A DNA stretch of 64,000 bases from Tubiluchus corallicola (lineage: Eukaryota > Priapulida > Priapulimorpha > Priapulimorphida > Tubiluchidae): contig JAQGDQ010000769.1 in NCBI GenBank assembly GCA_030141605.1, positions 34,823-98,822 on the forward strand. Direction: 5' to 3'. The notes below the pieces were generated by a model that searched no databases, had not been told where the DNA came from, and saw nothing but the letters and a program-made list of their open reading frames with translations. The translations under genes and the position numbers were made by a program. How positions within the stretch are numbered: the first letter of the stretch is position 1; each line of letters starts with the position of its first letter. Of the stretch, positions 236-61,190 are shown piece by piece.

Positions 236-1279
236 CTAACCGTGGTCTTTTACTGTATCCCATCCAAGCTTAATTGGATTTTCTGGTAAATTCGCTAAAG
301 AGACATTCCACACTAACAGAGGTTCAAAATCACATTCACCAACAGCTTCTTTAGCACCTCTTTGGTAATTCATTCCCACTTCTCTTTTGTTACAAGCTAA
401 TGTTTTGTTATCAGGTAAATTAGCGTACAGTGTATACAAGTTGTTTACTGCAAAATAATACATTATATAGGATGAAGGCATCGAACCCATCTTTAAATGA
501 CGTTTTCGTATCCAGGCATTCGTGATTAATCTTTGTCCTGGAATTATCGGAATAAAATTTTCATCTTTCATCACATCAAACACCCAATTGCGAAACTGAT
601 GCCATATTTCTGGAATTGGTGCAAATCCCCAAGTGCCTATCTGATGATATAGAAACACGCCTGCACTATAGCATTCTTCACACAGAGGATTTCTGTGTTT
701 TCCTGTTGTTGAAATCAAAGTTCCTCTCTGCAGTGTTATGCCTCCAATCTCAGATTTTTGATAATATTTTAACAATGCAGCTTTAAGCCATGTATAATAG
801 TGAGGAGAAACTTCCAGATCATCTTCCAAAATCAGCCCGAAGTCTCCCTTTCTTGCAGATGGTTTCCAACAATCATACCATTGCAAGTATGGTCCATAAT
901 GTACAGGGTGGACAATAACTTCCTTTCTACCGAAAACCCATATAAATGAGTTTATGACGTCAAGTGTAGTCGCTGATATTGAACTGTCATTAGCACTTCT
1001 GTCTACACAAATCTTTAGCCCAACTTCATCCTCATTATAGTGACTTGAATTAAGTGACTTTAGAAGCCTCAATAATGACTTTGGCCTTTTGTAAGTCAAT
1101 ACAACGATTTCCAACTTAAATGGATCATTTTCTTTCTTCCCCTTATTAAGCTTAGATGATCTCAAATTCAAAATTCCGCAATGAAACAATGCAAACATAC
1201 AAAAGCACACAAATGTGGCTAATCTTTGCTTCTTATTGCAAACTGATGCTTTTCTGCGCATTATTATTTTGTAAGTCAT
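236..1279 (-). CDS. GT2-like type II membrane glycosyltransferase
   Basis: Predicted 347-residue Golgi-type glycosyltransferase. The first ATG of the open frame is at 1279; the frame stays open a little further upstream, to a TAG, but contains no other ATG. Residues about 20-37 form one hydrophobic segment (LATFVCFCMFALFHCGIL) after a basic N-terminus, as in type II Golgi enzymes. The lumenal part starts with VVLTYKRPKSL (about 60-70), typical of the first strand of a GT-A/GT2 fold, and has LILEDDLEVSP near 149-159, whose EDD is a good DxD-like metal and nucleotide-sugar site. Later features are paired cysteines in CEECY and a WGFAP motif. The donor and acceptor sugars cannot be told. A T-rich tract ending in TAG lies just before the ATG, so a 5'-UTR intron is possible. 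The protein could equally be classed as an unassigned GT-A family. Confidence 0.8.
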   Translation of the reverse strand: MTYKIIMRRKASVCNKKQRLATFVCFCMFALFHCGILNLRSSKLNKGKKENDPFKLEIVVLTYKRPKSLLRLLKSLNSSHYNEDEVGLKICVDRSANDSSISATTLDVINSFIWVFGRKEVIVHPVHYGPYLQWYDCWKPSARKGDFGLILEDDLEVSPHYYTWLKAALLKYYQKSEIGGITLQRGTLISTTGKHRNPLCEECYSAGVFLYHQIGTWGFAPIPEIWHQFRNWVFDVMKDENFIPIIPGQRLITNAWIRKRHLKMGSMPSSYIMYYFAVNNLYTLYANLPDNKTLACNKREVGMNYQRGAKEAVGECDFEPLLVWNVSLANLPENPIKLGWDTVKDHG

Positions 1280-1725
1280 TCTAGATGTTAAAAAAAAACT
1301 TGCTCTTCGCAAGTTCTAAAATTGGGTGTGCTTTTCGGAATATGCTTACTAAATAAATCCTTCGCTTTAAGGTTTCCGCAACTAATGTGCTACTAGACGT
1401 ATCGCACTGGAGTAGAGAAAGAGTATTCTGCATCGAGTAGAGAAATATCGTACTGTGTTAAGTAGTTTTTGTCTTTGTTATTAGTTAAAATCCCTGAAAT
1501 AATCATAATTTTGTAGATAACAAAGTTGCATTGTGAGATCATTGAGTTGATGATTATGATGATGGTACTGATGATGAAGTGACACAGAAGCTCACATTTA
1601 ATATGATTTTTTACGAAGTAAAACTTTAGCAGATATGTGTGCACATTTGACTGTTTTCATGTTGGCCATAATACCTTACGTCACATTTTAAGCTTGAAAG
1701 TTACGTCAGATATTTGACATTGTGA
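1280..1725. other. intergenic, nothing recognised
   Basis: This is AT-rich sequence between the GT2-like gene and the left inverted-repeat arm. Open frames here are short and lack recognisable motifs. It may include the promoter of the GT2-like gene, but I see no defined element. Confidence 0.4.
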
Positions 1726-3750
1726 AATGTAAAGTGGTGTCTTTTTCCTTTTTTTCTTGCTTACTCAGTTTGTTTGTCAGTAGAATAAAAGCATTAAAAT
1801 GTTAATTGATCTTTCAGTAAGCTTTGTATTCAGAAACAGGTACACATAAACCACAAGGAAAACTCCGCATTTCAAAAGCATTAGTATCAGTCTCGCAACG
1901 TTACCAAAGTTAAGTGCGCTTCATACTCATATTGCATAAGTTACTAATTACTATCACCCACAAGGAACGCCGTCATTACAAAGATGACGTCACAGCTGCT
2001 CCTGGCCTTCAACCTAAACCCGAAATTCTTGTACAAATGGCCAGTTTCTTATTAGTACATAATACATTTTATGGCTTGCAAGATATATATAATTATTTGA
2101 TTTTGTGAAATGGATTGAGGCGTACATATGTCACAACTTAATTGGTCACTTACAACACACTTCTAATCGCAACACCAAATGAAAGCCCACATATAAGTTC
2201 CTATTCGTCCGTAGCAGTAGCCTTAAATTATTTATCTGTGAACGTTTTCGAGTCATAAGCCTCTAGAGTGCAGGATCACCTCTTGAGCTTTTTGTGATCC
2301 GGGACAGAGAAATTTACAAGATTTTGTAAAAATGTCCAAAACGCAGCCAAGATGGCCTAAAGAATCATGCCTGAAAGTTTGCCAGCTGTATCAAAATTAA
2401 GCCTTAGATTCAGATTTAATAATTATAGTTAACACTTCAACTATACTGTGAAGGCATTTCACAATATAGTTGAAGTGTTAGTAATTAAACATTCCTGCCC
2501 GTCAATCTCCAATATCCAAATTCCAACTTTACAAAGTCCAAAGTCTACTTTAGCCAAAATTTTTTGCTCATTTTTGAATACGTGTTGGAATACCTGATGT
2601 GGATTATGTAAAGACGATAAGTATTACTCATTAAATAAACTGGGGAATATTTAAGCTAACAAAACAAAAAAGATATATTAAAATGTCGGATGCTGGCATA
2701 TTTTTGGCCAAGATCAAATGGGATGAGTCACATTCTACCAACAGTGGGCTACAGTTGTCCAACTAGAATGATGCAATAGATACTATTTTGATAATCACTA
2801 TGGTTATTTAAGCTGTACTACAGTAAGCTGTGTGATGCGGTAATGTGGTGGAACTTGTTTAATCAGGTTTTTGGGTGTGGTTTGACAAGAGTAGTAGGCC
2901 TACACTGTAATAGACAAAAACTTACAGCAAGAAAAGAAACTAGCCTGGCAGAAATAAACTTGGTCAAAGTAATCATGTTTAGGGACTATCCATTGGATAC
3001 TTTTCAGAGTACTACGCCATGATGTGCCATTTTGAATTTTTGTACTACTATGCAGCGGACAACAATTGTCTGAAATGGAATTCTGGATATTATTAATCAT
3101 TTAACTATTACTGTTTGTTAAAATGTATTGCCAATGTGATATACTTGAATAAAATAAAGTCGTGTAAAATAACTGGTTTTCGTGGTAGACTTAACGATAC
3201 AAGCCTTTAACTTTTCAATTAGTCTTGAGGTAGTTGTTAAATTATTGTTACACCGTTTTACCAAGAATGGGTATATATACGCTTGCTCAAGGAATTTCAT
3301 GTGATACAGTATTTATACCTGTTCTCCGACTAAATGAATGAATAACAGTAACATATAAAAATTCACATATTCGTGTATGAAAAAATGAAATACTTGTTTT
3401 ACTATTGTAATAAAGATTGTTTTAACACTGTTTAACGGTGCTGCTGTAACGACCCAGTACAAAAAATTAGTTGACATTCCTGGGTCTGCTGGTTAGTTTG
3501 TTTATATTTCTTTCAATATTGCCTTGGTGAGACTTAACTTACTTTATTATTATTCCTATTTGTAATGCTTTGAATTATGATGTAACATTTAGCTGTTTCT
3601 CTTCTGCTAGTTTAAGCACATTTAAATTAGGTACCTGGGATGGGCCTGACCTTCACATCATTGTTTGAACTTCAGTCACAGCCTAGTTTTACCTATGCGT
3701 GTTTTACCTGTGTGACTATATAGTTGTCGACCTAGTTTTACTGCTGGATG
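1726..3750 (+). repeat. left arm of 2-kb inverted repeat
   Basis: This block is the reverse complement of 7856-9900, aligning almost base for base from the outer AATGTAAAG end to the inner CTGCTGGATG end. I see only scattered substitutions. One length difference stands out: the right arm has two copies of a 15-bp unit (AGGTAAAACACGCAT) where this arm has one. Short open frames in one arm recur in the other because of the repeat and show no codon-level constraint. The arms enclose a GT11 gene. Candidate explanations are long terminal inverted repeats of a DNA transposon, two copies of one repeat family in opposite orientation, or a segmental inverted duplication. I see no clear target-site duplication at the outer ends. 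Confidence 0.9.
2430..2480. repeat. 51-bp palindrome in the left arm
   Basis: A 23-bp stem with one mismatch surrounds a GGCAT loop; the stem begins TAACACTTCAACTATACTG. The same hairpin is kept at 9141-9191 in the other arm. It would form a hairpin in DNA or RNA. No function is known to me. Confidence 0.85.
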
Positions 3751-3755
3751 AATGA

Positions 3756-4683
3756 TTAGCCATTTGCTGCTAAAATACTTGAAAAAATCGCATTTAATCA
3801 ACTGTCCTCTTTTCATATACAAAACAAAGTTTTATAAGACTATCAATTCGGTTTTCGAAAGTCGCATTCAACAGCATTAGCATTAATTGAAATAACTAAT
3901 AAAGTGAAAGGTATATATGACATGTATCGTCTTCATTTCATGTATCAATATCATAATTCACTATTTCCACCAGCTTTTCAGTCATACTTTAGCCCAGGTT
4001 CAAATCAACATGATCATTACACAAGGTATCCAGTCTGAAACTATGTACTGCCTCTTCCAAAACAAATTTAAAGAAACGTCATCAAAACAAAATGCTATTA
4101 AAATATGGTCATCAATTCCGCGTGAAATGGAATCTCTTAATCTTTATCAATTTCAAAAAGCATCAAAGAATTACTTACTACAAAGGTATAATTAGCTAAA
4201 AATTTTACTAATCCTGATCTTTAATTACTGACAAAAATTATTTTTTTCTAATGTACGCTATAACTGATGAAAATACTACGTGTAACAGATTTTTGCTTAC
4301 AAATTCGTGCACGTGTCGCCATCTGTGGCGGGAATGTAAAGCTTATAGTTTTGGCCAGTTTTTCTGTTTTTTACCTGTTAGTCACCTGTGCTCTGAACAG
4401 TCGGGTTAATCCACTTTAGAGTATATTTGGGACATTTATGTGCTTATTTTGTTACAATGAAGCTTTCAGTGGTATTAACCTCTGTTGAAAAGTTTCTGTA
4501 ATTACACGAGGGATATGTTAATTGATAATTGCTTCACTTATCTGGTGGAGGACTCCAAAGGTTAATGCTACTTCCTCCTCCTCACAGTGACTCGTTTATT
4601 TATATTTTATAATGTAACAATTATTTGTATGTATGTTATATGTACGATTTGCTGTGAAATAAATTCATAATTCATAAAATCCA
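3756..4683 (+). mobile_element. truncated non-LTR retrotransposon (LINE) relic
   Basis: About 3776-3910 encodes a reverse transcriptase fragment containing ILEKIAFNQL, a stop, then QFGFRKSHSTALALIEI, which matches the central RT region of CR1/Jockey-type LINEs. It then jumps directly to C-terminal-like sequence (about 3930-4195), so a large internal part is missing. The tail has a polyadenylation-like AAATAAA and ends in ATTCATAATTCATAAAA, typical of short 3' repeats in this class. It abuts the inner end of the left inverted-repeat arm. Confidence 0.7.
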
Positions 4684-4889
4684 ATATTTTAATCAAAATC
4701 ATACAAACTTTGTCCAGCTTGCTGATTACACTCAAGCAATATTGCTGCACTCCGTTTTACTCGGTTTCCTAAGAATAGTTGCCAAGATGTATTTAAAACT
4801 ATGTAAAATAGTTATAGTCCGGTTTGTTAGCCAAAAAAGAAGACTGGGTACAGCTTCCAAGCTCTCGTGAATTATTCTTCACGCCTTTC
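4684..4889. other. spacer inside the inverted-repeat loop
   Basis: This AT-rich stretch between the LINE tail and the diverged arm-family copy shows no gene or repeat that I recognise. Confidence 0.4.
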
Positions 4890-5210
4890 ACACAGCGTTT
4901 TGGATATTTTTATAAAAATCTGCGTTTTAGGCCGCTGTCCCTGGACACAAAAAGGCCAAGAAGTGGCTCTGCTTTTTGGAAGCTTATAATTCCAAAACGT
5001 ACACACAATTGACACACATGTGTACTATTAGGGACCAATAGGAAGTTATGTGTATGCTTTAATTTGACGGTGTGATTAGTGACTTTGGAACAAACGAAGT
5101 GACCAAATTACGTCATCAGTACCACTAAATCCATTTCACAACCTCTAAGATCCAAAATCTATTATTAGTCCATAACTTGCAAACAAAGTCATAAAATGTG
5201 ACGAAATGTA
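4890..5210 (+). repeat. diverged third copy of the inverted-repeat family
   Basis: This stretch aligns in the direct sense with about 9282-9560 of the right arm. Shared landmarks, in order, are TTTTGGA(T/C)ATTTTTA, a CTGTCCC(T/G)GGA(T/C)CACAAAAAG block, GCTTAT(A/G)A(T/C)T, GACCAATAGGAA-like sequence, and TCCATTTCACAA. It is much more diverged than the two arms are from each other. The arms therefore belong to an older dispersed family, which argues against their being unique flanks of the GT11 gene. Confidence 0.65.
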
Positions 5211-5787
5211 TTATGTATTTCAATACTCAATAATGTGTACACCCATTTTTGACCACTAGCGAAAACTTCTCATAATTCTGTCATATTGTTATGAATATTT
5301 ATTTTATATTTCGTGTAGTAGCCAAACAAGTCTTTCAAATCTGGTCTCGTCTCTTCTTTTTTACCAGGACACCCAGACCGTTTCAAAAAACGTTTTTATT
5401 ACATTTTTTCCAAAATTTGTGGGAAGTAGTTGCGGAAAGTAGTATTCTTCGTGGAAACAAGGTATGCCTTTATATGCCACTGCCGAATACTCTTTCCACT
5501 GATATAACAGATCTACGTTCACACTGTCTCGTTCTTATAACACCTCAGCTTAAATTTTGCAAAAAAGTGCGACAAAATCCAGCCCATGTCTATTGATACA
5601 ATTAAAACTGTAACTATTACACAACATGGCAGTTCAGTGCTCACACATTGAAAACTGTAACTTGTGATAACAAGGCTTAATATGCAATTTGATTGGATAA
5701 CAAGGAAGTGGTACTAATGGCTGGAATAATAAAGTGGCAGAAATAGTGTTTTTTAGCTCGCAAAGGCAAGGAGTGGGCTAAAATAAA
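5211..5787. other. upstream region of first GT11 gene
   Basis: No coding or repeat match is seen beyond a possible faint continuation of the preceding repeat. A pyrimidine-rich TGTTTTTTAG about 30 bp before the GT11 start could be a splice acceptor for a 5'-UTR exon. Confidence 0.35.
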
Positions 5788-6915
5788 ATGTCAAGAAAAT
5801 ATGGATTTGTTTGTACATACAGGAAACTGTTTTTTATTTGTTTCATATATCCTTGCTTAAAAAACATTTACATGGCGACTCAGCAAAAAACGATTTCAGT
5901 CAGCTCAGAAAGATTTCCGGTTGTTCCAGAATGTACAGAAAACGACACCAAACTGCGAAGAAAAGTAGATGTAGATAGCGTACTCGTCAATGTGACCAAA
6001 AATGAAAAAGTTGTCAGTATTTTTCCAAAATACTTGAATAAACTTCTCCATTCGCTGAATGACACCACGTTTTACATAACCATGGGCATGTTTCCAGGTC
6101 GGCTGGGCAATCACATGTTTCAATATGCCTCACTGTATGGAATAGCAAAAGCAAATCAGCTAACGCCAATACTGCCTGATCGGTTTCCTTTATACAGGAT
6201 ATATCCCAAACTATCTATTCCAGTAATGTCATCGTGGAATTATATCACCTACAGAAAAGTATTTCGTCGAGTTCGATTTAAGTGTAACTATAAATTTTGC
6301 CCACAATCTAGCAACCTGAGAAAGTACGTTGGAAGCAGCAAAAATATTAGTTTAAAGGGGTATTTCCATTCCTACAAATATTTTAATAAATGGAAAGATG
6401 ATATTAAAGAGCAGTTTAGATTTCGTCAAGAAACAGTTGCAAAAGCCAGAAATATTCTGTATTCTCAATTAGACATGAAGTTTAATTTTCGTAAAGGCAC
6501 TCAGTTTAATATCACGTTGATTGGAGTTCACGTTCGAAGGGGTGACATTAAGAAAACGAATTTGCACGTTCCCACAAAAGAATATTTGACAAGATCTATA
6601 TTATACATGAGAGAAAGGTATGTGAACTCCGTGTTTGTAATTATCGGTGACAATACAGCTTGGAATAAGAGAAACATGGAAGACTTTGACGTTGTTGTCA
6701 TGCCAAACACTTGTGATCCTGTAGTTGACATGTGCATTGTATCTCACTTGTGTGATCACGTGATTACAACGGTGGGAACTTACAGTTTTTGGTGTGGATA
6801 TTTATCAAAGGGAAGTGTACTATATTTTCGAGATACGTTTTTTGATAGTCATAAAGATAAAACTAGCCAAACCACTGCAGACGATTATTTCCCACCAGAA
6901 TGGATTGGCTTATAA
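5788..6915 (+). CDS. GT11 alpha-1,2-fucosyltransferase-like (copy 1)
   Basis: Single-exon, 375-residue GT11 enzyme, expected to transfer fucose from GDP-fucose in alpha-1,2 linkage in the Golgi. The start is the first in-frame ATG. A short hydrophobic stretch at about 14-28 (LFFICFIYPCL) is a weak signal anchor. The catalytic domain begins at about 96 with ITMGMFPGRLGNHMFQYASL, the usual GT11 N-terminal motif. The GDP-fucose-binding motif GVHVRRGD lies at 246-253, and the C-terminal motif TVGTYSFWCGYLSKG at 328-342. These are the family's hallmark motifs and all are intact. It is a close paralogue of the minus-strand gene at 60090-61190, sharing ISLKGY(F/L)HSYKYF and the VDMCIVSxLCxHVI region. 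It lies between two 2-kb inverted repeats. Acceptor specificity is unknown; some invertebrate GT11 proteins are uncharacterised. Confidence 0.93.
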   Translation: MSRKYGFVCTYRKLFFICFIYPCLKNIYMATQQKTISVSSERFPVVPECTENDTKLRRKVDVDSVLVNVTKNEKVVSIFPKYLNKLLHSLNDTTFYITMGMFPGRLGNHMFQYASLYGIAKANQLTPILPDRFPLYRIYPKLSIPVMSSWNYITYRKVFRRVRFKCNYKFCPQSSNLRKYVGSSKNISLKGYFHSYKYFNKWKDDIKEQFRFRQETVAKARNILYSQLDMKFNFRKGTQFNITLIGVHVRRGDIKKTNLHVPTKEYLTRSILYMRERYVNSVFVIIGDNTAWNKRNMEDFDVVVMPNTCDPVVDMCIVSHLCDHVITTVGTYSFWCGYLSKGSVLYFRDTFFDSHKDKTSQTTADDYFPPEWIGL

Positions 6916-7855
6916 TGACAAAAGTAGCAGCCGTAAGGGACGCAGACTGAACTAGTCGTTGGTAGGCGCTGAGTGCACTGGTTACAGTTGGTTATATTCC
7001 AGAGCCGAGCTGAATCAGTATTTAAATGTAACCAGCTGTCCTGCCTCAGACAACAGAGGCGAGGGTCTAAGTAGTCGACTCAACAGTATGATATTGTTCG
7101 TGGTGTGATCAAGAATTTAGAACAGCTCAACACAACATAAATGTTTTAACAGTAATTATTAAACAAAATGAAACAGTAAATCTTATTAATAATTGGCTCA
7201 ATAATTAAATAGTTCAGCTTGTTTTTACTATAGTAATACTCAAAGCAAAGTGACACACAAAAACAACATATTGTACTACTACGTTCTGCTATATAAAAAA
7301 GGTAGCACGCAAATACTCAAAGTCTAAGTTTGGTATATAACCTAAACATCTGAACTGGGGGCATGTTTTTAGCACTGGCAATAATATTACCAACTGATTA
7401 TGAGAGGTATCTAAAAGCCTAACTTTCGGGCCATCCCGTACATGCTAGCATTCAAAACCGAATCCTCTACTTGTGCCGTAAGTAGTCACGTGACTAGCGG
7501 AACGAATATTGCAATTTGCGTGTTGCAGTGTAGAAGTCCAGTGCTGTAAGGAGACTAATGCTTCTATCTCCAATCAGTTTATTGTCAGGCCCGTTATAAG
7601 TAGCTACAAACGAAATGAACAAGTTCAGAGTCTTACCGGTGCTGCATTGCTGGATACTTTCCCAGACACAACCACGTCTCTCCCAGAAAGCACTGTCAGC
7701 TTGCAAATGTCACGTCGTATCTAATCCGTGAATCTGCGCATGATTTTAACTCTTTTGATCACTGCCGACGAAGAGAATATTGTGAACGTTTCACCAGAAA
7801 ACTTCACTCTAGTTAAACATTGCAGGTTACCTTGGCGCTGGCCTTCCTTCTCGAC
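6916..7855. other. 3' flank of first GT11 gene
   Basis: This contains a likely poly(A) signal (ATTAAA at 7158). No gene is recognised. Open frames on both strands around 7500-7720 overlap each other and carry no motif. Confidence 0.4.
7158..7163 (+). promoter_or_regulatory. possible poly(A) signal of GT11 copy 1
   Basis: ATTAAA, the common variant signal, lies about 240 bp after the GT11 stop codon. This rests on position and motif only. Confidence 0.35.
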
Positions 7856-9900
7856 CATCCAGCAGTAAAACTAGGTCGACAACTATCTAGTCACACAGGT
7901 AAAGCACGCATAGGTAAAACACGCATAGGTAAAACTAGGCTGTGACTGAAGTTCAAACAATGATGTGAAGGTCAGGCCCATCCCAGGTACCTAATTTAAA
8001 TGTGCTTAAACTAGCAGAAGAGAAACAGCTAAATGTTACATCATAATTCAAAGCATTGCAAATAGGAATAATAATAAAGTAAGTTAAGTCTCACCAAGGC
8101 AATATTGAAAGAAATATAAACAAACTAACCAGCAGACCCAGGAATGTCAACTAATTTTTTGTACTGGGTCGTTACAGCAGCACCGTTAAACAGTGTTAAA
8201 ACAATCTTTATTACAATAGTAAAACAAGTATTTCATTTTTTCATACACGAATATGTGAATTTTTATATGTTACTGTTATTCATTCATTTAGTCGGAGAAC
8301 AGGTATAAATACTGTATCACATGAAATTCCTTGAGCAAGCGTATATAAACCCATTCTTGGTAAAACGGTGTAACAATAATTTAACAACTACCTCAAGACT
8401 AATTGAAAAGTTAAAGGCTTGTATCGTTAAGTCTACCACGAAAACCAGTTATTTTACACGACTTTATTTTATTCAAGTATATCACATTGGCAATACATTT
8501 TAACAAACAGTAATAGTTAAATGATTAATAATATCCAGAATTCCATTTCAGACAATTGTTGTCCGCTGCATAGTAGTAAAAAAATTCAAAATGGCACATC
8601 ATGGCGTAGTACTCTGAAAAGTATCCAATGGATAGTCCCTAAACATGATTACTTTGACCAAGTTTATTTCTGCCAGGCTAGTTTCTTTTCTTGCTGTAAG
8701 TTTTTGTTTATTACAGTGTAGGCCTACTACTCTTGTCAAACCACACCCAAAAACCTGATTAAACAAGTTCCACCACATTTCCGCATCACACAGCTTACTG
8801 TAGTACAGCTTAAATAACCATAGTGATTATCAAAATAGTATCTATTGCATCATTCTAGTTGGACAACTGTAGCCCACTGTTGGTAGAATGTGATTCATCC
8901 CATTTGATCTTGGCCAAAAATATGCCAGCATCCGACATTTTAATATATCTTTTTTGTTTTGTTAGCTTAAATATTCCCCAGTTTATTTAATGAGTAATAC
9001 TTATCGTCTTTACATAATCCACATCAGGTATTCCAACACGTATTCAAAAATGAGCAAAAAATTTTGGCTAAAGTAGACTTTGGACTTTGTAAAGTTGGAC
9101 TTTGGATATTGGAGATTGACGGGCAGGAATGTTTAATTACTAACACTTCAACTATATTGTGAAATGCCTTCACAGTATAGTTGAAGTGTTAACTATAATT
9201 ATTAAATCTGAATCTAAGGCTTAATTTTGATGATTGGATACAGCTGGCGAACTTTCAGGCATGATTCTTTAGGCCATCTTGGCTGCGTTTTGGACATTTT
9301 TACAAAATCTTGTAAATTTCTCTGTCCCGGATCACAAAAAGCTCAAGAGGTGATCCTGCACTCTAGAGGCTTATGACTCGAAAACGTTCACAGATAAATA
9401 ATTTAAGGCTACTGCTACGGACGAATAGGAACTTATATGTGGGCTTTCATTTGGTGTTGCGATTAGAAGTGTGTTGTAAGTGACCAATTAAGTTGTGACA
9501 TATGTACTCCTCAATCCATTTCACAAAATCAAATAATTATATATATCTTGCAAGCCATAAAATGTATTATGTACTAATAAGAAACTGGCCATTTGTACAA
9601 GAATTTCGGATTTAGGTTGAAGGCCAGGAGCAGCTGTGACGTCATCTTTGTAATGACGGCGTTCCTTGTGGGTGATAGTAATTAGTAACTTATGCAATAC
9701 GAGTATGAAGCGCACTTAACCTTGGTAACGTTGCGAGACTGATACTAATGCTTTTGAAATGCGGAGTTTTCCTTGTGGTTTATGTGTACCTGTTTCTGAA
9801 TACAAAGCTTACAGAAAGATCAATTAACATTTTAATGCTTTTATTCTACTAACAGACAATCTGAGTAAGCAAGAAAAAAAGAAAAAAGATACTTTACAAT
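7856..9900 (-). repeat. right arm of 2-kb inverted repeat
   Basis: Reverse complement of 1726-3750. The inner end begins at CATCCAGCAG and the outer end finishes around ACTTTACAAT. Two tandem 15-bp units (about 7898-7930) distinguish it from the left arm. The arms are separated by about 4.1 kb holding a LINE relic, a diverged copy of the same family and the GT11 gene. Confidence 0.9.
9141..9191. repeat. 51-bp palindrome in the right arm
   Basis: This is the counterpart of the hairpin at 2430-2480, with the same stem and five-base loop in reverse complement. Confidence 0.85.
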
Positions 9901-10859: not shown

Positions 10860-11100
10860 CTGGACTCAACTCCGGATTTTTTCGAAATTTTCGAAACTGC
10901 CTGTGGAAAAAACGTGTTATGGGACTCTTGGAAGGAGGGTATAGAAGAACTGGGCCACACGATGGAAACATCCACCATGAGGGGCTGTGATTTGTTGATT
11001 GGAGGTTCCATTTCGGGAGATTTTCGCTTGGAAAACAGCTGATGCGAAGCCAGTGATCTGACGTCTCTGCTTATAACCTAGTGTTGACGAAGCCTTTGTA
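10860..11100 (+). repeat. partial copy of dispersed repeat B
   Basis: Matches 51110-51370 (direct) and 24480-24770 (reverse). Shared landmarks include TTTTTCGAAATTTT, a TGTGGAAAAAACGT-type block, GGGACTCTTGGAAGGAG, and ATTTTCGCTTGGAAAACAGCTGA followed by GACGTC. It is shorter and more diverged than the other two copies. Confidence 0.65.
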
Positions 11101-46621: not shown

Positions 46622-46674
46622 TATGCGCGAATTTTGATGTGCGTCAGATTTTTCTCTTTTGATAATCAATATTG

Positions 46675-48867: not shown

Positions 48868-50657
<1,790 letters not shown>

Positions 50658-50735
50658 ATGATATCTTCTATATATTAATATTCTTGGTATGTTATATATA
50701 TATTCGAGGCTACAGCTCCAACGAGGGCACCATTT
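50658..50735 (+). repeat. duplicated block, copy B, downstream piece
   Basis: Matches 46503-46590 as far as the AGCTCC(A/G)ACGAGGGC(A/G)CC block; the two then diverge, and copy B runs into repeat B. Confidence 0.9.
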
Positions 50736-50789
50736 GCGGCGATCTATATATCAAACGAAAGGTCTCGATATCGAACGATATCGATCTAG

Positions 50790-51545: not shown

Positions 51546-52289
51546 GGTTATAGTAGGCTAGTAGAAGTAGCCAATTTGTGGGACTTAATTACAAGACAAT
51601 TGTTTTCTTTGTTTTAATGAGTAGGTTATGTAGCATACTGGTTGAATTTTTAGGTCTTTCAGCACTTGAAAAGGTGCAGGTGTGTGCATGGCAAGGGTGG
51701 TTCTACACAATGCTGTATGTACGATTTGATAACTGACTTTGTTAGCATTATGTTGTGCAAAATTGTGATAATCTTACAACCATCAGGGTCCATTACACTG
51801 AAAACGGTCTGTCTCTAAATTGCCCAAAAATGTATTTATTGATTTTCACAAGCTGTTTTTTCTTCGTGCTATAAGTTTTCTCAAGCCATTTTTCAATCTA
51901 AGCTTGTTATTAATGTTATTGCTAGGAAAAACAGTAACCATGGCAACAAATTTGTGGGACTAACAGTATATATTATCAACGATACATACATAGTAAGGAA
52001 GACAGGTGGCAATAAGTGCTTTTGAAAAGGTCAGTAAAGACATTGGTGCAAACGCTAGTGCTGTGTGGGGGCGGTCGTAAGATTTAACTGGCCCTAAAAG
52101 ACTTTCTAGTGATTGTGGGAATCTTTCTGTTACATAACATCCTAATACAGAATTTTAGTAGCGAGTATTTGCTGACTTAGTTCAAAGCATTAGAAGAAAA
52201 TGGTTTTATATTTTCTGTTAGTAACTGGTTCAGATAAAAACTTTATCTAAATTCGACGGAAATTTGATTACTGCAAAGAGATTACTTCA
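51546..52289. other. intergenic or intronic, nothing recognised
   Basis: Lies within the predicted GT31 intron. No gene or repeat match was found. Confidence 0.35.
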
Positions 52290-52475
52290 ATAACATTAAA
52301 AATACGTTTTGATTAGTGAGTGGTGCACCCTGAAGGGTGGGTCAGCGACAAATTTTTCCACTAGGTGAAAGCATTTTAAATAATTAATAATGTTTGTTTC
52401 TAAGTCCTACAAGCAGGTAAACGAAAAGCCAAGTAATATAATTTTGCATGGAAAGTTTTTATGGGAAATAGTTTA
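52290..52475 (+). repeat. third, partial copy of the duplicated block
   Basis: Matches 45225-45400 and 50310-50490: TTAGTGAGTGGTGCACCCTG, AGGGTG(G/A)GTCAGC, TTTAAATAATTAATAAT and AGCAGGTAA(A/G)CGAAA are shared in order. Confidence 0.75.
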
Positions 52476-53049
52476 ATATGTACTTTTCTTCCCCTGATTT
52501 TCGCAACTTTTCTTCTACTGATTAACGTTTTCGTAAGTGACGTCATGTAATGGCGCCATCTGAACAGTGTCGCGGGAAGTTTAAAATGGAAAAAATGAAA
52601 AATCCTTTTAAAGCGAGTTTGATATAAAATTGCTATAAAGTGATATAATTTCTGAAGGCGATTTTTCCGAAACCCTCTTTAGGTTTCCCTCTTTTTGTCC
52701 TTTAAAGAATGTTGCAATAAGTTAACTTCAAGCTATATAAATGTAGTGACAAGCCAGTCAAAGGGTGGCTACATCACATGGGGGCATATAATTTCATTAG
52801 CCTAGGTAACCCGTCCCTGACAGAAACCTATAAGGCTCTGCAGCAAACCTATCGAAACAGGACCACTTTTCTGCATTTCGAAAAAAGCTTAGTTGCATGT
52901 AAACGGAGAACAGCATATTCAAAAAGTCTGATTTTTCCACCTGCAAGTAGAATACAAACACTATGGGCCTGTGTTAGAAGACTGAGTCACGAATCTATTT
53001 CTTCCTGCTTCTAGCTAGTCTACCTGACTATGTCACTAGTTAAATTGCT
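52476..53049. other. no feature recognised
   Basis: A 78-codon frame at 52778 has no motif or splice support. It contains GTAATGGCGCCATCTGAACA, a short motif also hinted at 4318 and 23960. Confidence 0.3.
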
Positions 53050-53390
53050 ATGTTGCACCAGAAGAGTTTAAAGCAAAACCGGGCTCAATCTTAACCTGTG
53101 ACCAAACAATCTACTTTTTAAAATATGGAAAGGAAACATTATTTCCGGAATGCCTTAGTGAAATAATTATTACGGCACAAACGGAATTTTGAGTTCAAGC
53201 CAATAGTTCTTCGCTGCTACTTACATTTCATCATTTGTTAGTTAGACGGGCACCGGCGCCATATCGGAAATACCTTGCAAAAACAGGTGCTGTGCCTCTC
53301 AGTTCAAATGTGTTAGTTTCTGATGTACTGCACACGTTCGACAGCTCATGCGTGACCACAGCAGTAAATTTGAAATTTGAATTATCTTAA
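53050..53390 (+). repeat. dispersed repeat C, copy 3
   Basis: Diverged direct match to 38050-38420: AAAGCAAAACC(G)GG, TTTTTAAAATATGGAAAGGA, AAAACAGGTGCTGT, and CTGCACACGTTCGACAGCTC. Confidence 0.7.
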
Positions 53391-54011
53391 AACTACATGG
53401 GGAGTTTTATTACAACATACTGAATCTCTTACAGTAGTACCATACTTCTACATTCGCTTTTGCAAACATATGCAACACGGTCATGGAATATTTTTGCTGT
53501 TGAAAATTATGTTATTTGACGATGTCATCAATATTATTGCTCCCCTGCTTTTAATTAAGATTTTAGTCTAATATTTAATTATCAGCAACGCTTGTCCAGT
53601 ATTACTGGTATTAAAATATAACGTTTTAGAGTTCTTGAACATGGGCCAGTGTATGGAAAGCCACCCTGACTTCTTTTAAATTAAAGCTAACAAATGACTA
53701 TCCCACATAGGATTAATAGAACAAGGTGATTTGACCGTAGCACATGCCATTATGGACGAGTAGGTTAAAGTTTCGCAGGCCAAACTTAGCTGTTGGCAAC
53801 TTGTAGGTTACTGGTCATCCTTAATGCGTGAGAAATAGATCTACTATGTCACCTAACTTAAACTCCTCTCTGAACAGCAATATTAAATATATATTATTGA
53901 AGTAATAAGATTAACAATAAAGCAAATACACTTACAGGTCTTTATAAAGGTAACTCTATTTATTGCAATTCTTTTGAAAATTTACACAATCCTAATTACA
54001 CTTCTTTGCAG

Positions 54012-54475
54012 GTGTCAGAAGGATCGATGAGTTCTTTTTCTTGGTGTCTGGAGACATTGTGCAAGAAATTATCTACACATTAAAACCTGAAAATCTACAA
54101 TGTTCTACACATGGTGGCATATCAGCTGCACTGTGGCTGCACAAATTGGATAATGTTACTTATTTAGCAGACAGGAGAGTGCACTTGGGATTCAGCAAAC
54201 ATTTGAAAAATCCCAGCGCTACAACTTGTGACGAAGTTATAGTTATGCATCACTCCTATCCAAAACTAGCAAAGAAATTGTGGGGCGTGGTAAATGCATC
54301 TCGTCAACTTCCAGAGAAAAATGTTGACTTTTCTCACAAGTGTTCAGGTAGAGAAAATAATTTTAAAGGACACAAGTTTAAGAACTGTCTTGGTGACTCC
54401 TTTACAAAAACAGAATTTTATGAAGGCAACGAAAAACGAGTTCTTTCGATTCATCAAGATAAATTGTTCACCTAA
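54012..54475 (+). CDS. probable GT31 3' exon (B3GALT6-like C-terminus)
   Basis: An open frame preceded by a good acceptor (CTTCTTTGCAG, ending 54011); upstream of it there is no in-frame ATG. It encodes 153 residues after the split codon. FFFLVSGDIVQEI corresponds to the GGGYVLSxDLV block of B3GALT6-type enzymes. ISAALWLHKL and an H-D/D-R-R-V-H-L region follow, then VIVMHHSYPKLAKKLW, equivalent to the conserved THKQ region. Joining to 46215 gives GGT (Gly 212) and a 365-residue protein, normal for the family. Two oddities: the usual acidic EDV before the W-L block is HGGI here, and the join is about 17 residues shorter than B3GALT6, so a small middle exon may be missed. It could instead belong to a separate, partly lost GT31 gene. 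Confidence 0.5.
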
Positions 54476-55869
54476 TCTTGTATTTATGAAGGAAAAACAA
54501 TTTTGATAAAATGTGAGATCTCATAGTGAAAGTTGAACGTCATTGTTGCAACTTTGTGAATGATAATAATGTTATTCTTTGGCATTACATTGTTGGTGTT
54601 TAAATTAACCCATTTATTTACAACAACCAGACAATCCACATGTTGACATCTACCATTTCCTAATTCTAACTGTGGTGTGGTACTTGTTGTATCCCTTTTG
54701 ATCCATCCTATCTCTGCCATGCTCCCATTCCATGATCCCATTCACGAATAGCTGATTGCTAATAATTCCATAAGCAGCTGACCATCTGTCTCCTTATTTT
54801 AGTCGTTTAAATCCAATTCTGTTAGATGCTAAAATGACATGCTATTATCGCGTGTTTTCCTGTTTGTAGTTAAAAATGACTTAGACTTGCAAATGGAAGT
54901 TCCTATTGTTTTTGCTCTTATTTGCTCATTTGTTCATATCTTCAAGACTCTTCAAAAGAGTCAGTGAAATGAACAGGTTATCAAAATATAATTTGTAATA
55001 AAGTTGCGGAGTTCAAGAAATAAATCCACAACTGTTAAACCGCCCATACCAAGATGAGCATCATATTATGTCTGAGCAGCTGACTGATAAGATTCGCAGG
55101 TATCAAATATTCTAAAGTCTTGGAACCGAATCTTGTTGGTTTGCCATGCAGTAAACTGTTTAGCAGAATTTCACCATAACTAGATTGATGCTTTCGTTGA
55201 CCTTAATTGCTTGCTCCACTGGCCAGTGCATTAAGAATTGTCTATTCAACATAGCGAAGTGCATTATAGCTACAGACATTCTGCTTACAGCATCTAATGT
55301 CAAATTATGTGAACGTACCATTGAATATGTTCAATCAATATGCATTGTTGTAAGTAGATTGTAACCAGAAATTAATAAAATAACCAGTTCAAGTTTTACT
55401 TTGTCTCGCTTTGGGTTATAGTTACTGTTAATTTGACAGACCTGGTATTTAGTGAAGCACAGAAGGATATTCTGGCATTGGGGCTCAAATTTGTGTTTGG
55501 ACTTTTGTGCTTCCCTGTTTTGGAGTTTTTTCGAATATTAGACATGGCATTTTTATTTTTTATTTCTATTTATTCATTAACATTTATACATATATTAAAA
55601 GTAAGAAACAGCAGGTGTAAGAGGACTTGCGCTGATTGTTTCTTGTATAAACTGCCGTAAATAAAAACTTCAGACAAATTCAATATGTAGTTTACATTGA
55701 CTTTTAACGTTTAAAATGCGGTTTCTCTCTGACAAATATTTTACACATCCATCTTTGCCAAACATCAGTTATTAAATGCTCACATGGCACTGGAGAAAAA
55801 GACATTAGAAAAAAGACACAAATAGGAAAGTAGTGGCATTTGATGGCATATGTTATTTTCATGCAGTTT
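54476..55869. other. 3' flank of GT31 exon, nothing else recognised
   Basis: AATAAA occurs near 54997 and 55019, about 520-545 bp after the stop, as possible poly(A) sites. No further gene is supported. Confidence 0.35.
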
Positions 55870-56530
55870 ATTTCTATAATAAAAATAGAATGCACTCAGT
55901 AGGAAGCAGATTTCTACCAATGCCGAGCAATCCTGGACTTATTCGTCTGATTGTTTTGACTAAAAAAGACAAAATTAAGATAAACAAGCAGACATAAAAA
56001 TGTACCTGTATTGGTATTATGTAGGCTATTTTGTTCATTAAGTAGAATTATAATCAATCGTTCACGTGTGTTTATCTATTTTTGTTTAACAATTAAGTTT
56101 AGGGATGGTAACTGACTGACATTTTCCAAGCGAGAATTTTTAGATGTGAAAGCTGGAACTAACTCATAGTGGTTTATCCTGGTGGAGATAATGAACAACA
56201 AGTACTAACACTCCATATGGAGACTTCCACGAAGCGCTTGACGAATATTTTACGTATGTCATGGCAGATTACACTAAGAACAATCTATATATGTATGCTG
56301 TGTTTGGTTAAGTTTTGCAAGTAAGAACGGGTGAAAAAATGCCTATTTTGGCAGCCTATACCTCCTTTTTCCACAAATTTTCGTGGGAATCTGTAAGGTG
56401 TTTTTGGGTAATAAAAAAAGAACCAAACAAACTGTGTTGAAGCATAACTTCCTTGGCAGAGGTAAAAATATAAAATAATTATCCCCTACAGTAACCTTGA
56501 CCCTAACTGTGCTGTTTTTCCTGTACCATA
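55870..56530 (+). repeat. dispersed repeat D, copy 2
   Basis: Direct match to 40620-41330, moderately diverged, leading into the same type of pyrimidine-rich array. Confidence 0.75.
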
Positions 56531-56765
56531 TTTACCGTGCTATTTTCCCCATGCCACTTTTTCCTCTGCCATTTTTTCCTACTTTTTCGTTTGTGCCATT
56601 TTATCCACAATTCCATTTGTGCGATTTTTCCTGTGCCATTTTGTCTCCTTTCCATTTGTGCAATTTCTTCCTGTACCATTTTATCTCCTTTCCATTTGTG
56701 CCATTTTTTTCCTGTGCCACTTTACTTCCTTTCCATTTGCGCTATTTCTTCCTGTGCTCTACCGA
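56500..56765 (+). repeat. 40-bp minisatellite (CCATTTGTGC / TGTGCCATTTT)
   Basis: In the better part (56580-56765) a unit of about 40 bp, starting TTTCCATTTGTGC and including CTGT(A/G)CCA(T/C)TTTA, recurs about four times. Three reading frames stay open over it because of the repeat. The same units occur at 41335-41485 and, inverted, at 40500-40620. Confidence 0.8.
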
Positions 56766-57900
56766 AATGGTGAAATGACAATAATAATCCATTGTTCTGC
56801 TGTACAAGTACTTCAACGCAGCGGACTTATTACACAGCTAGCTGAAGGTTGGACGAGGAAGACGAATGTCAAATCTACTAGCCGCTGCAGTGGCGCCTAC
56901 TACTGCATCCGTGGATGAAGCAGAAATATTATATCAACGATGTAAATTAGTAGAGCAAATAAACAGAAAAATTGTGCATTTTTGAGAAAATTATGTAATT
57001 TCTAGCACAGGTACATAGCGTTTCGTCTTAGGTGTGGAGGGAAAACAGATTTGTCCTTTGAGAGCTGCTAGAGATCAAATTCAAAATGGCTGCCATCGAC
57101 AAAGGCAAACTTTCTCAATTGTCATATTTTGCCAACTTCTGATGCAGCACTACGAGTAAAGTATCTATATTTGCCAAAATTTAATATGGAATAATTTAAA
57201 GTAAATATAGGAGCAAAATTTCAAATCACATTTGAATATTTGAGTTTGCATTTGACAGAAATCCAAGATGGCGTCTATAAGTAGGATTATCAAGCACCCA
57301 GCGTTTCGAGTGTATCGTTTTGTGAGACACTGTAATTGATATAATTTTCAGCTAAAATAAGTTTTCCATCCTTTTCAAAATAGTTTTGAAATTTACAATA
57401 ACATGTTATTATAAGGATTTAGATAAATTAACATTAGAGTTTATCTTTCACAGTAACATGACTGTTTGGGCTTTACGGTGACAAACAAAGTCATCATTTT
57501 GCTCAGAATAACTGTTTATTGTTTGTGTACCATTTTCACGTCACATGCACCTTTACTTCATCATATCTGACACTGTGACGCCATTACCCAAAATATTACA
57601 TTTTATCTGAAACAAGATATATAAATTCCTTTAATAAACTAATTCGTTTCTATCAAAAGATCGATTACGATTACGTGAAATTAATGAGAGACTTACAGTA
57701 AATAAAATAAATAACTAAATAAAATTTACATACATCGTTGGCATTAAATCGTGAGTTCACAGAAACACGTCATCACTTGAACACATTGAAACTTAAATAA
57801 ACGGAAATTGACTAGGATGCAAAAATTGAGGCCAGATGTTGCCACTTGTAACTGTAAAACGCTATATTAAATTTAACAAACAAAAATCCTTGACACCGTC
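56766..57900. other. intergenic, nothing recognised
   Basis: Contains AAAATGGCTGCCATC and CCAAGATGGCGTC (57085 and 57267), which resemble YY1-type sites by chance or design. No gene is seen. Confidence 0.35.
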
Positions 57901-57903
57901 TAC

Positions 57904-58736
57904 TTAAAGGTATGTTAGACATTTACTATTTACTACAAAGAGTTTAACAGAGCAAACATCTTTATGAACTGTCAATCTAATTTTTACAGTGCTTCTCAAC
58001 CAAGTACTTTCAAGTGTGCTTTCAACCAAGCATAATCTGTGAATGGGGCGCTGCAGCTGCCCATCCTTTGTTTTTAGTGTTACGCTTCTCACTAGGCCGT
58101 CTCTTCCAACATGTTTTTCCGTTATTCGAGCAAGAAGCCAACAACTTCTGGGGGTTTCATCCATTATCAGTACAACGTCGCCTATTTCGACATCCTTCTT
58201 CTAGCGATTCGATTTTGAGCGGATCTGGAGAAGCGGCAAGTACTCTGTCTGCCAACGTCGCCAAAAGACATCAGCAGAGACAGGCACAGATGCCAAGACC
58301 TCACGTCTGTTGCTCATCCACTTAGTTATGTGGAATCCACCAAGAGACAATAAGGCAGTCAGTTGAGAAACTAGCTGTATGGCTTCATTCACGGTGTTTA
58401 GCGATTTTAAAAGGTCGTCCACATAGAAGTTTCGTAAAACGGTAACGACGGGTAATTTGCGGGAAACAGATCTGCATTGTCTTTTGCAGTCCTTTGCAAA
58501 GCAAATGATGCAACCCTCGGGGACCACACCCCGCCAAACAAGTGTACACACATTCTAAAAGTACGTGGTTGACTGTTAAGATTACCATCTTTCCACCAAA
58601 GGAAACGCAACATATCTCTGTGTTTTGGAGACACGATCACCTGGTGGAGCATCTCCCGGATATCCACCATTACTGCAATAGGATTCTCTCTAAACCGAAG
58701 CAAAACTCCAATGCACGTGTTTGTAAGATCTGGCAT
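57904..58736 (-). mobile_element. BEL/Pao LTR-retrotransposon relic, RT joined to terminal domain
   Basis: The minus strand encodes Pao-type reverse transcriptase: VLLRFRENPIAVMVDIREM (near 58700), MLRFLWWKDG, VHLFGGVWSP (frame change near 58560), RNFYVDDLLKSL with the YVDD active-site box, then GGFHITKWMSNRREVL. Directly after this comes FWRRWQTEYLPLLQ, and then MDETPRSCWLLARITEKHVG and GLVRSVTLKTKDGQLQRPIH, which belong to the DUF5641 domain at the far end of the polyprotein. RNase H and integrase are missing between them. No LTRs, gag or protease were seen. Frameshifts are present, so it is a dead fragment. Confidence 0.85.
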
Positions 58737-59190
58737 GTTGTTTTAACGAAGTATTTTACGATGTAAAACTTTTTCACAAATTATCTTGTAAATGTGGACA
58801 GATTACGCTAAACGTTTTCCACACTGGAAGCGTAATAATGATGGGGGATTTCTCCCACGCATTTGATAAATATAATGATTTCGCATACGAGAAGATGATG
58901 TTCGCTTGCCTGCTTAATGATTGCCATATGTAGCTGAAGAATAAACTGTTTTGTATCGCATAAACGAATATATAATTGTATAATGAAATTTGTAGAATTT
59001 TTAATAATTATTTTGTATTACATAAGTGAATGGAGAAATGTATAATCAAACGTGTAGAATTTTAATAATCAAAGAAACATGTAATCAGTTGTAGAAACAA
59101 TCACTTGTAGAAATCATTTGTACATAAACGATAAATATTTATGAAAATTTGATTTTTGATGCTTGGAGAAGTATTTCAATCACTTTCACC
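58737..59190. other. intergenic, nothing recognised
   Basis: AT-rich flank of the retrotransposon relic. No LTR could be recognised. Confidence 0.35.
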
Positions 59191-59612
59191 TTAAATGCGA
59201 AATTTTCTCTGCAAATCTTAATTAAATAACACATGTTGATGAATAAACAACACACTCTAACGTGCACGTATTACACAATAATAAAAGCAAGTACATAAGA
59301 TCATGACTCATCCTTAGAGCAACTGTACATGTGCAAACCTACAACAAGTTAGTCCAACCGCGCATGTGCAAACGTACACGTCATTTCAGACACTCTCTCT
59401 CTAAAGCAAAATTTTCACTGCAAAGCTTAATTAAATAGCACATGTTGATGATAAATTGATGTGCTCTAACGTGTATGACTTCACATATTACGCAATTGTA
59501 AAAACAATTGCTTAAGATCATTATACATTCTTAGAGCAACCATGCATGCACAAACCACAATCTCATTTCACAACAAGATAGACCAACCGCGCATGCGCAC
59601 ACCTACATTTAA
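59191..59612 (+). repeat. tandem duplication, two ~211-bp units
   Basis: Unit 1 starts at 59191 and unit 2 at 59402. Shared are AAATTTTC(T/A)CTGCAAA, CTTAATTAAATA(A/G)CACATG, CTCTAACGTG, TTAGAGCAAC and CCAACCGCGCATG(T/C)GCA. Moderate divergence means it is not recent. Confidence 0.8.
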
Positions 59613-60089
59613 TACATGTAAAGTAATACGTGTCGCTGTGGCCTGAGTGGTGCCTGATTGGTTGATGTCTATATTATCACTTAGCTAGATCATTACAGAG
59701 AAATAGACCAAGTGTTTATTACATTTTACAAAGGATGTAGCTTTGTCACATAAATGCACAGAGCTTGAGTCATTTTACAGGTGATTATAGAAATCATAAC
59801 TGTTTGTTAAATACAATATTTATGATTACTGACAGCAAAATGTTAGTAGGGTAGCTCTGCTACAAATACCTTAAACATTCTCTAGAACAAACAGTGCAGA
59901 TACTTGTCCCCTACGAGATCTGACTTTTCAACTGCTATATAAATATCAATGACTATAAAATTACTCTAATGAAATAACACACCTTGAAGTAAATCCTTAA
60001 CAGTTGGCAAATAAAAAAATCAAAGGACTTGATAGCATGAATGATGGAAAAATTTAAATTTTTTTAGCAACACAAAGTTTTTACTTTGT
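59613..60089. other. 3' flank of third GT11 gene
   Basis: TTTATT near 59714 (AATAAA on the minus strand) is a distant candidate poly(A) signal. Nothing else is seen. Confidence 0.35.
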
Positions 60090-61190
60090 TTAATTTAGTC
60101 CTATCCATTTAGGTGGCCAATAATCACTAGCAATGAACAAGTGTGTTTTGTCTCTGTACCTATCAGGAAGCATATCACGAAAATATACTACAGTTCCATT
60201 TGATAAATATCCACACCAGAAACTGAATGTTCCTACTGTTATGATCACGTGATTGCATAGTTGACTTACTATGCACATGTCAACAGCAGGCTCACTGTTG
60301 TTAGGCATGAAAACGACAACTGATCCATTAATGTTTTCTTTGTTCCAGGTTGTATCCTTGCCAAGAACAACAAACACTACGTTTGTAAATTTGCTTTTCA
60401 TAAATTCCATGGACCTTTTGATATATTCAGCTGAAGGGACTTTAAAAATTGTTGACAAGATATCGCCTCTTCGCACGTGAATTCCCACTAATGTTACTGT
60501 AGCAGCAAAAATACCTCTCTGCTGTAATTCATAATTTAACAACATTCTCGCTTTTGTGATGGTTTTACTGTTAAAACTAAATTGACTTTTAATTTCGTCT
60601 TTCAAGTCTTTAAAATATTTATATGAGTGGAGATACCCTTTCAAACTTATGTTTGTTGGGTGTCCAATGTAATCTATTAAATGTTGCGAATGAGGATAAA
60701 ACTTTGTGCCATATCTTAATCTAACACGCCGAAACTGTTTTCTAAAGTACAAATATTTAACTGAAGACATTGTTGGTATCTTTAGATGTGAAAAGACATT
60801 GTACAAGGAAAAATCTTCTGGCAATACTGGTGTAAAGCGATTTGCACGTGCTATTCCGTACAAGGAAGCATAGCTAAACATGTTATTTCCAAGTCTTCCT
60901 GGCAGCATTCCCATAGTTATGTAAGACACTCTGTTTTTCAGTGAGTGTAGAGTAACTCTTGCATTCTGACGTCTTGAGTACAAACGGTTTTCTTGCTCTT
61001 CAGTTTTCATAATGAAATGATATTTAGTACCGAGGCTTCTAGGCCTAGGTCTTTCTATGTCTACCATGCGTAACTTTTGTTTCACGACAACCCAAACGTA
61101 AACAAAACCACAAAAAGTCATCAGTAAGAAAAATGTGAACACAGCCTGTTGTCTATTGGTATGTTTTCTTATGGTGTCATGATGTTCCAT
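60090..61190 (-). CDS. GT11 alpha-1,2-fucosyltransferase-like (copy 3)
   Basis: Single-exon, 366-residue GT11 enzyme with the ATG at 61190. The signal anchor is strong, at about 17-36 (VFTFFLLMTFCGFVYVWVVV), after a short basic tail. The catalytic domain begins ITMGMLPGRLGNNMFSYASL (91-110). The GDP-fucose motif GIHVRRGD is at 236-243, and TVGTFSFWCGYLSNG at 318-332. All hallmark motifs are intact. It is most like the gene at 5788-6915, sharing long blocks, and less like that at 22648-23682. The pair lies 53 kb apart on opposite strands. A T-rich TTTTTAG just upstream of the ATG on the minus strand could mark a 5'-UTR acceptor. Acceptor sugar is unknown. Confidence 0.93.
   Translation of the reverse strand: MEHHDTIRKHTNRQQAVFTFFLLMTFCGFVYVWVVVKQKLRMVDIERPRPRSLGTKYHFIMKTEEQENRLYSRRQNARVTLHSLKNRVSYITMGMLPGRLGNNMFSYASLYGIARANRFTPVLPEDFSLYNVFSHLKIPTMSSVKYLYFRKQFRRVRLRYGTKFYPHSQHLIDYIGHPTNISLKGYLHSYKYFKDLKDEIKSQFSFNSKTITKARMLLNYELQQRGIFAATVTLVGIHVRRGDILSTIFKVPSAEYIKRSMEFMKSKFTNVVFVVLGKDTTWNKENINGSVVVFMPNNSEPAVDMCIVSQLCNHVIITVGTFSFWCGYLSNGTVVYFRDMLPDRYRDKTHLFIASDYWPPKWIGLN

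Follow-up and report, generated by a model that had tools for sequence, protein, structure and literature searches.

The genome of the priapulid Tubiluchus corallicola contains about a dozen mixed clusters in which genes for glycan-building enzymes of unrelated families lie side by side, and the richest of this series is found at the right end of contig C1794 (JAQGDQ010000769.1). We analysed 64,000 nucleotides of this 98,822-base contig (C1794:34823-98822, hereafter the window) against the whole assembly of 343.5 Mb in 2344 contigs. Pfam profiles and phmmer identify eight glycan genes in the window: three genes of glycosyltransferase (GT) family GT11 (FUTa, FUTb, and FUTc), one GT92, one GT31-like, and one GT2-like gene, and two sulfotransferase genes, CHST (Sulfotransfer_2) and Gal3ST. 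The first-pass annotation of this DNA had named the same eight genes, and all of them were recovered, the GT31 and GT2 calls lying under the Pfam cut-offs. The grouping exceeds what that annotation saw, both in size and in generality: it continues to the left of the window and recurs genome-wide. With the left third of the contig included, C1794 carries 12 glycan-type genes of eight families. With slightly more confidence than doubt, we regard the window as part of a genuine glycogene cluster that is not an operon, whose enzymes would act on a shared glycan and whose linkage would have been kept.

The eight families were searched singly, GT2-like with the window protein and the others with Pfam profiles; two of them, FkbM and DUF268, were added to the counts after they had been seen beside the window. 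Rows of the same family within 1.5 kb of each other (3 kb for the cytochrome P450 control, P450) were merged before counting, which changed GT11 from 34 to 33, CHST from 94 to 91, Gal3ST from 25 to 24, GT92 from 27 to 26, GT31 from 58 to 56, GT2-like from 58 to 52, and P450 from 96 to 91. One of 95 Sulfotransfer_2 rows was dropped, as it represents the Gal3ST gene of contig C1260 (C1260:82624-83307). The GT31-like genes of C1794 and C1260 scored below the search threshold and stand outside the counts. The resulting 324 glycan loci were compared with 1000 runs of uniform random placement, a null that takes no account of gene density or contig ends.

The mixture of families exceeds chance. Within 50 kb we found 185 cross-family pairs where 12.75 are expected, and 115 against 11.15 when C1794 and C1260 are set aside. 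Single linkage at 50 kb yielded 13 groups with at least three families (random mean 0.40, maximum 3) and seven groups with at least four (random mean 0.01, maximum 1), the latter on C1794, C1260, C2300, C974, C1634, C2337, and C527. After 10 further copies with identical scores had been dropped, the six families of the window still formed 87 pairs (8.51 expected), or 53 (7.62 expected) without C1794 and C1260. Among individual combinations, CHST with GT2-like (28 pairs, 1.38 expected) and GT11 with CHST (14, 0.87 expected) were enriched. The two added families, counted without C1794 and C1260, each gave 24 pairs, FkbM against 1.72 expected (12 of 22 loci) and DUF268 against 1.09 (6 of 14 loci). 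Across the assembly, 9 of 17 DUF268 loci lie no more than 50 kb from the six families, for example C1634:32036-32554, and this placement suggests a role in glycan modification for the predicted DUF268 proteins. In the P450 control, for which 92 of 472 candidates were scored, 91 loci formed a single pair with glycan loci (8.58 expected), and so did the 55 loci left after removal of a repeated block (5.19 expected). That non-homologous glycan enzymes are grouped, as the first-pass annotation claimed, thus holds beyond the window, since the same families recur jointly on other contigs.

A second contig, C1260, carries a rearranged copy of the cluster. It holds FUTa, FUTb, GT92, CHST, Gal3ST, and both GT31-like exons at 87-97% amino-acid identity (FUTa 91%, FUTb 92%, GT92 87%, Gal3ST 96%, GT31-like exon 2 96%), and in addition a second CHST gene, one FkbM gene, and one DUF268 gene, the last two at about 92-93%. 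No match to the GT2-like gene or to FUTc's own place was detected on C1260. Gene order and orientation differ between the two contigs, and the 40-100 kb part of C1260 aligns at 80% identity or more to just 28,664 of 94,000 C1794 bases. In seven exon pairs, synonymous divergence (dS) ranges from 0.04 to 0.19 and the ratio of nonsynonymous to synonymous divergence (dN/dS) from 0.33 to 0.41. Six of the seven C1260 frames are free of stops, and GT31-like exon 1 has stops only beyond its proposed coding part. Given these dN/dS values the genes are not debris; the copies on both contigs are under purifying selection. C1794 and C1260 may be alleles (haplotypes) or separate loci.

Across other contigs the clusters are only partly independent of one another. 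GT2-like genes on C813, C1706, C2033, C1456, and C1651 are 83-86% identical to that of the window and probably spread together with their neighbours, and the window locus, too, clearly bears the mark of block duplication and rearrangement. Elsewhere the members are distant: GT2-like at 38% (C527) and 51% (C1992), Gal3ST at 44% (C2300), and GT11 at 34-35% (C551). The mixture of families has therefore either arisen repeatedly or stayed linked over long divergence. A coming together by recent random insertion only, which the first-pass annotation had named as the outcome that would speak against its reading, does not describe clusters that recur with such divergent members.

The C1794 cluster consists of 12 separate genes with one or two exons each, which occupy both strands and mostly lie kilobases apart. 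By step, they comprise enzymes predicted for sugar addition (GT2-like, three GT11, GT31-like, and GT92), sulfation (two CHST and one Gal3ST), and, probably, methylation (two FkbM and one DUF268). An operon would place its genes on one strand with short gaps between them; here both strands are used and the gaps are of kilobase size, except at Gal3ST. What the locus does share with described glycogene clusters is the adjacency of predicted Golgi-type enzymes from several unrelated families. The coordinates of all features are given in Table 1.

Table 1. Genes, repeats, and retroelement remnants of the C1794 cluster, with one gene of C1260. Positions without a contig name are those of the window.
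Feature	Position	Strand	Evidence and remarks
GT2-like glycosyltransferase gene, single exon	239-1315 (stop 236-238)	-	PF00535 (GT2) E 0.018, 15.4 bits (cut-off 23.3), below cut-off; first Met at protein positions 13, 19
Inverted repeat, left arm	1728-3750		about 2 kb, 97.8% identical to right arm
FUTa, GT11 fucosyltransferase-type, single exon	5782-6912	+	PF01531 E 9.4e-22, 78 bits (cut-off 23.9), above cut-off
Inverted repeat, right arm	7856-9898		the two arms flank FUTa
CHST exon 1 (proposed), hydrophobic anchor	12460-12598	+	donor GTAATT; 86% identical reading on C1260; splicing inferred
CHST main exon (Sulfotransfer_2)	14489-15441	+	acceptor read; PF03567 match 14377-15441, E 6.9e-47, 161.1 bits (cut-off 22), profile 2-252 of 252
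FUTb, GT11-type, single exon	22609-23679	+	PF01531 E 1.8e-32, 113.2 bits, above cut-off
Retroelement remnant, reverse transcriptase	26637-26912
GT92 gene, single exon	32248-33702	+	PF01697 E 4.6e-29, 102.2 bits (cut-off 23)
Pre-GT31 segment, first copy	43875-45545		directly before GT31-like exon 1; 90.5% identical to second copy
GT31-like exon 1	45642-46215	+	start Met chosen by C1260 conservation; Pfam match 45552-46280
Gal3ST main exon	46678-47727	-	PF06990 E 6.2e-59, 200.4 bits (cut-off 27), profile 64-399 of 402
Pre-GT31 segment, second copy	48966-50658		in proposed GT31-like intron; without exon 1
GT31-like exon 2	54012-54472	+	joined in phase to donor 46215/46216 (proposed)
Retroelement remnant, DUF5641	58204-58554
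FUTc, GT11-type, single exon	60093-61232	-	PF01531 E 8.7e-26, 91.3 bits, above cut-off
Retroelement remnant, open frame resembling ORF1 of a long interspersed nuclear element (LINE)	63472-63996
DUF268 gene	C1794:937-2019		PF03269 96.6 bits (cut-off 25)
FkbM-type methyltransferase gene 1	C1794:17237-18277		PF05050 46.6 bits (cut-off 22.7)
FkbM-type methyltransferase gene 2	C1794:22907-23947		96% like gene 1, side by side with it
Second CHST gene	C1794:26963-27937		PF03567 159.4 bits (cut-off 22)
DUF268 gene of C1260	C1260:49273-50358

All three GT11 translations contain HVRRGD, which matches HxRRxD, a sequence that we take to be the GDP-fucose motif of GT11. We predict them to be fucosyltransferases with putative alpha-1,2 activity. 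FUTa and FUTc are 55% identical, and FUTb is 29-37% identical to either. The GT31-like gene is so called because the PF01762 match of exon 1 stays under the cut-off (E 2.5e-4, 21.3 bits against 23) while phmmer matches this exon to the solved B3GALT6 (E 7.5e-6). With exon 2 placed as in Table 1, Gal3ST lies antisense inside the proposed GT31-like intron, about 0.4 kb from exon 1. CHST exon 1 joins the main exon in phase and recurs in the C1260 copy; the exon joins of both genes are proposed from sequence. The first-pass annotation missed GT31-like exon 2 and CHST exon 1. The open frame of Gal3ST lacks an N-terminal anchor, and no upstream exon was recognised by eye among the listed frames. The GT2-like, GT31-like, and FUTc proteins carry a distinct hydrophobic stretch at the N-terminus (mean hydropathy 1.9 to 2.3), which is weaker in FUTa, FUTb, and GT92 (1.2 to 1.5).

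The GT2-like gene is the least secure of the eight assignments, and we apply this label to it only in the sense of a predicted likeness. Seven of 16 family members match Pfam GT2 weakly (best E 7.8e-4) and one of 16 matches GNT-I (GT13) at E 0.032, while the motif E164-D165-D166 is invariant in all 16 rows of the alignment. The family profile retrieved POMGNT1 alone from the PDB, at E 0.71, and none of the CHST, Gal3ST, and GT2-like proteins had a significant match when searched by sequence against the PDB. NCBIfam, run against five of the proteins, returned no match near a cut-off. One scan of viral_contigs for a viral source of the GT2-like gene produced 4 pattern matches and no relative. 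A single-sequence fold model had a mean predicted local distance difference test score (pLDDT) of 30.6 and was not used.

To the left of the window, open frames of C1794:1-4822 were read and compared with known proteins, and a Pfam search of C1794:4823-34822 showed retroelement pieces and minisatellite readings besides the genes listed in Table 1. The FkbM and DUF268 genes probably have a methylation role, and the DUF268 translation may bind S-adenosylmethionine, judging from a reading by eye. A minisatellite array is present at C1794:20132-20813 and at C1260:55242-56249, and the C1260 reading yields an MgtE_N match in Pfam. A DUF1896 match (E 4.1e-8) arose when C1794:4823-14822 and C1260:50000-59999 were scanned together, so its contig of origin is ambiguous.

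Six-frame Pfam scans, with X at stops, covered window positions 1316-5774, 6913-14371, 15400-22611, 23680-32249, 33700-45561, 47700-60101, and 61200-64000; positions 1-1315, the other frames within genes, and 45562-47699 except for its listed frames stood outside them. Between the window genes these scans found no further host gene, only retroelement domains (RVT_1 6.8e-6, Exo_endo_phos_2 1.6e-6, and DUF5641 3.3e-23) and matches with E of 0.013 or above. DUF5641 is presumably associated with Pao-type retroelements. In a codon-usage scan for which the same genes served as the training set, the frames of the eight genes came out on top, followed by low-complexity stretches and a LINE-like frame. 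Within the range of both scans, the claim of the first-pass annotation that nearly every recognisable host gene encodes a glycan enzyme is therefore supported. GT31-like exon 2 had no Pfam match and scored 8.8 in the codon scan against 21.5 to 35.5 for the main frames of the genes, so short divergent exons could escape both scans. Microbial contamination or recent transfer was judged unlikely, as GC content is even across the window (0.32-0.365) and a transposon family of the window has 2632 candidate places in the genome (40 of them scored), among which are sites on contigs longer than 1 Mb. At third codon positions, the GC content of five window genes (0.31-0.36) matches or falls slightly short of the lowest values among eight GT11 loci from other parts of the genome (0.35-0.46).

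The window also contains duplicated segments. The inverted-repeat arms around FUTa showed no known domain in six-frame Pfam searches, and the left arm includes a 51-bp palindrome (2430-2480). On C1260, Gal3ST lies before rather than inside the GT31-like gene, and exon 1 directly follows the pre-GT31 segment. This fits a history in which segment and exon were duplicated together and exon 1 was then lost from one copy; this part of C1794 could also be an assembly fold. The gap between the duplicated segments had led us to consider GT31-like exon 1 as transposon cargo; we rejected this, as inspection by eye revealed neither inverted ends nor a clear target-site duplication.

Parts of the assembly are repetitive in a way that concerns the counts. 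A P450 block with the same spacing occurs on 13 contigs (C2, C14, C457, C628, C1781, C1850, C2066, C2159, C2185, C2200, C2228, C2254, and C2271) and reflects either redundancy of the assembly or a large repeat of very recent origin. C2300, C884, C1667, C1005, and C2249 show mirror-image match patterns whose scores are equal or almost so, as expected of palindromic contigs, be they real or an effect of assembly, and C461 and C485 repeat one another's matches. Of the mixed-group contigs whose size was seen, C1794, C1260, C2300, and C527 are below 110 kb and C1992 measures 403 kb.

Several observations weigh against a functional cluster. The 28 mixed groups in total compare with a random mean of 12.25 and a maximum of 23, so groups of two families carry little information on their own, and only 111 of 324 loci lie inside mixed groups, the majority being outside. 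The enrichment is uneven, with no GT92-GT31 pair (0.42 expected), two GT11-GT31 pairs (0.54), and six CHST-GT31 pairs (1.48). The groups are not independent events, since clusters share gene subfamilies, and parts of the assembly are redundant. P450 is the sole control family, and most of its genes have several exons, in contrast to the majority of glycan genes here. The three GT11 genes fit a duplication-prone region as well as they fit a pathway, and the placing of eight enzymes in one pathway on one glycan, with joint expression and with the linkages named in the first-pass annotation, is a hypothesis drawn from the sequence.

These points bear most directly on an explanation that we take seriously while rating it as rather doubtful: repeat-rich, duplication-prone regions may passively gather large, fast-turning, mostly single-exon families, making neighbours of genes that share no pathway and whose linkage has no function. 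It accounts equally well for the rearrangements, and the scrambled order of C1794 relative to C1260, the small share of C1794 that aligns between them, the 2-kb inverted repeat and segment duplication within the window, the nearly identical adjacent FkbM genes, and the close GT2-like copies on several contigs all agree with it. It leaves unexplained why glycan families gather with one another, when P450 loci fall far short of their expected pairs, thin as a single control is. We consider it improbable that chimeric or collapsed contigs brought the glycan genes together. The P450 block, the mirror-image patterns, the mutual repetition of C461 and C485, and the duplicated segment with its lost exon all show how such an artefact could look; random joins, however, would import other genes too, the signal survives the dropping of identical-score copies, and C1260 independently carries most of the same genes. 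Redundancy inflates the counts of identical genes and does not by itself unite unrelated glycan families. Least probable of all, in our judgement, is that single-exon glycan genes are simply easy to see and that genes with several exons went unnoticed between them, leaving the cluster less pure than it appears. GT31-like exon 2, which Pfam did not see and the codon scan scored low, illustrates how this might happen, but it touches the purity of the cluster and not the genome-wide excess of cross-family pairs, for which the same method was used throughout.

Animal glycogene clusters are a known kind of locus that has barely been described. In Caenorhabditis elegans, 'glycogene clusters' of the C13A2, K06H6, and T15D6 regions combine putative glycosyltransferases of mixed families with potential methyltransferases and DUF268; some hold several members of one family, there are hints that expression is coordinated, and polycistronic mRNAs were proposed as a possible cause (PMC7614267). 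The first-pass annotation had called the grouping unusual, a word to be qualified in view of these earlier clusters. The likeness extends to adjacent putative Golgi enzymes of different GT families, DUF268, and methyltransferases. In contrast to the operons suggested for C. elegans, the T. corallicola genes use both strands and are separated by kilobase gaps with transposons between them. The excerpts of PMC7614267 considered here name NDP-sugar (nucleoside diphosphate sugar) transporters, DUF273, and DUF1647 and no sulfotransferases, whereas two sulfotransferase families belong to the core of the present cluster. Terpene clusters of octocorals likewise link non-homologous enzyme genes in an animal genome, but they serve a small-molecule pathway with characterised enzymes, whereas the present clusters concern macromolecular glycans and are known from genes alone (excerpts of PMC11784711). 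Sulfotransferase expansions were described in Alvinella (PMC12403961), a sea cucumber (PMC10213396), and the pearl oyster (PMC5597905), and in Alvinella also expansions of beta-1,3-galactosyltransferase, Methyltransf_21, and GT92 (PMC12403961); as far as the excerpts of these papers go, they report gene numbers or expression rather than mixed physical clusters. Our literature search, which most subscription journals lie beyond, recognised no other mixed glycan cluster of animals besides those of C. elegans. New here are the non-operon layout, the two core sulfotransferase families, a count that spans an entire assembly, and purifying selection on a rearranged copy.

If the C1794 genes do form a functional cluster, each would give rise to its own enzyme of the secretory pathway, and together these enzymes would lengthen a surface or secreted glycan and furnish it with fucose, sulfate, and possibly O-methyl groups, the last provided that the FkbM and DUF268 proteins act on sugars. 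Linkage would be kept since genes of one chromatin neighbourhood would be expressed and inherited together, while individual copies were duplicated, inverted, and lost. A wider proposal, which we put forward tentatively and with more doubt than belief, is that a good part of the outer-glycan enzymology of this animal may be organised as mixed, non-operon cassettes of glycosyltransferases, sulfotransferases, and sugar methyltransferases, each passed on and controlled as a unit and diversified by block duplication and shuffling, with DUF268 as a glycan-modifying enzyme, probably a methyltransferase. On that proposal the clusters would diversify in the manner of bacterial capsule loci.

The glycan structures of an animal cannot yet be read from its genome, as the partners of most Golgi enzymes are unknown. 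Should the genes of a cluster have a substrate in common, linkage would predict pathways and would give functions to the DUF268, GT2-like, and animal FkbM families. It would also extend the glycoclusters of C. elegans to a genome whose clusters do not fit operons, and why the genes stay together would become a testable question.

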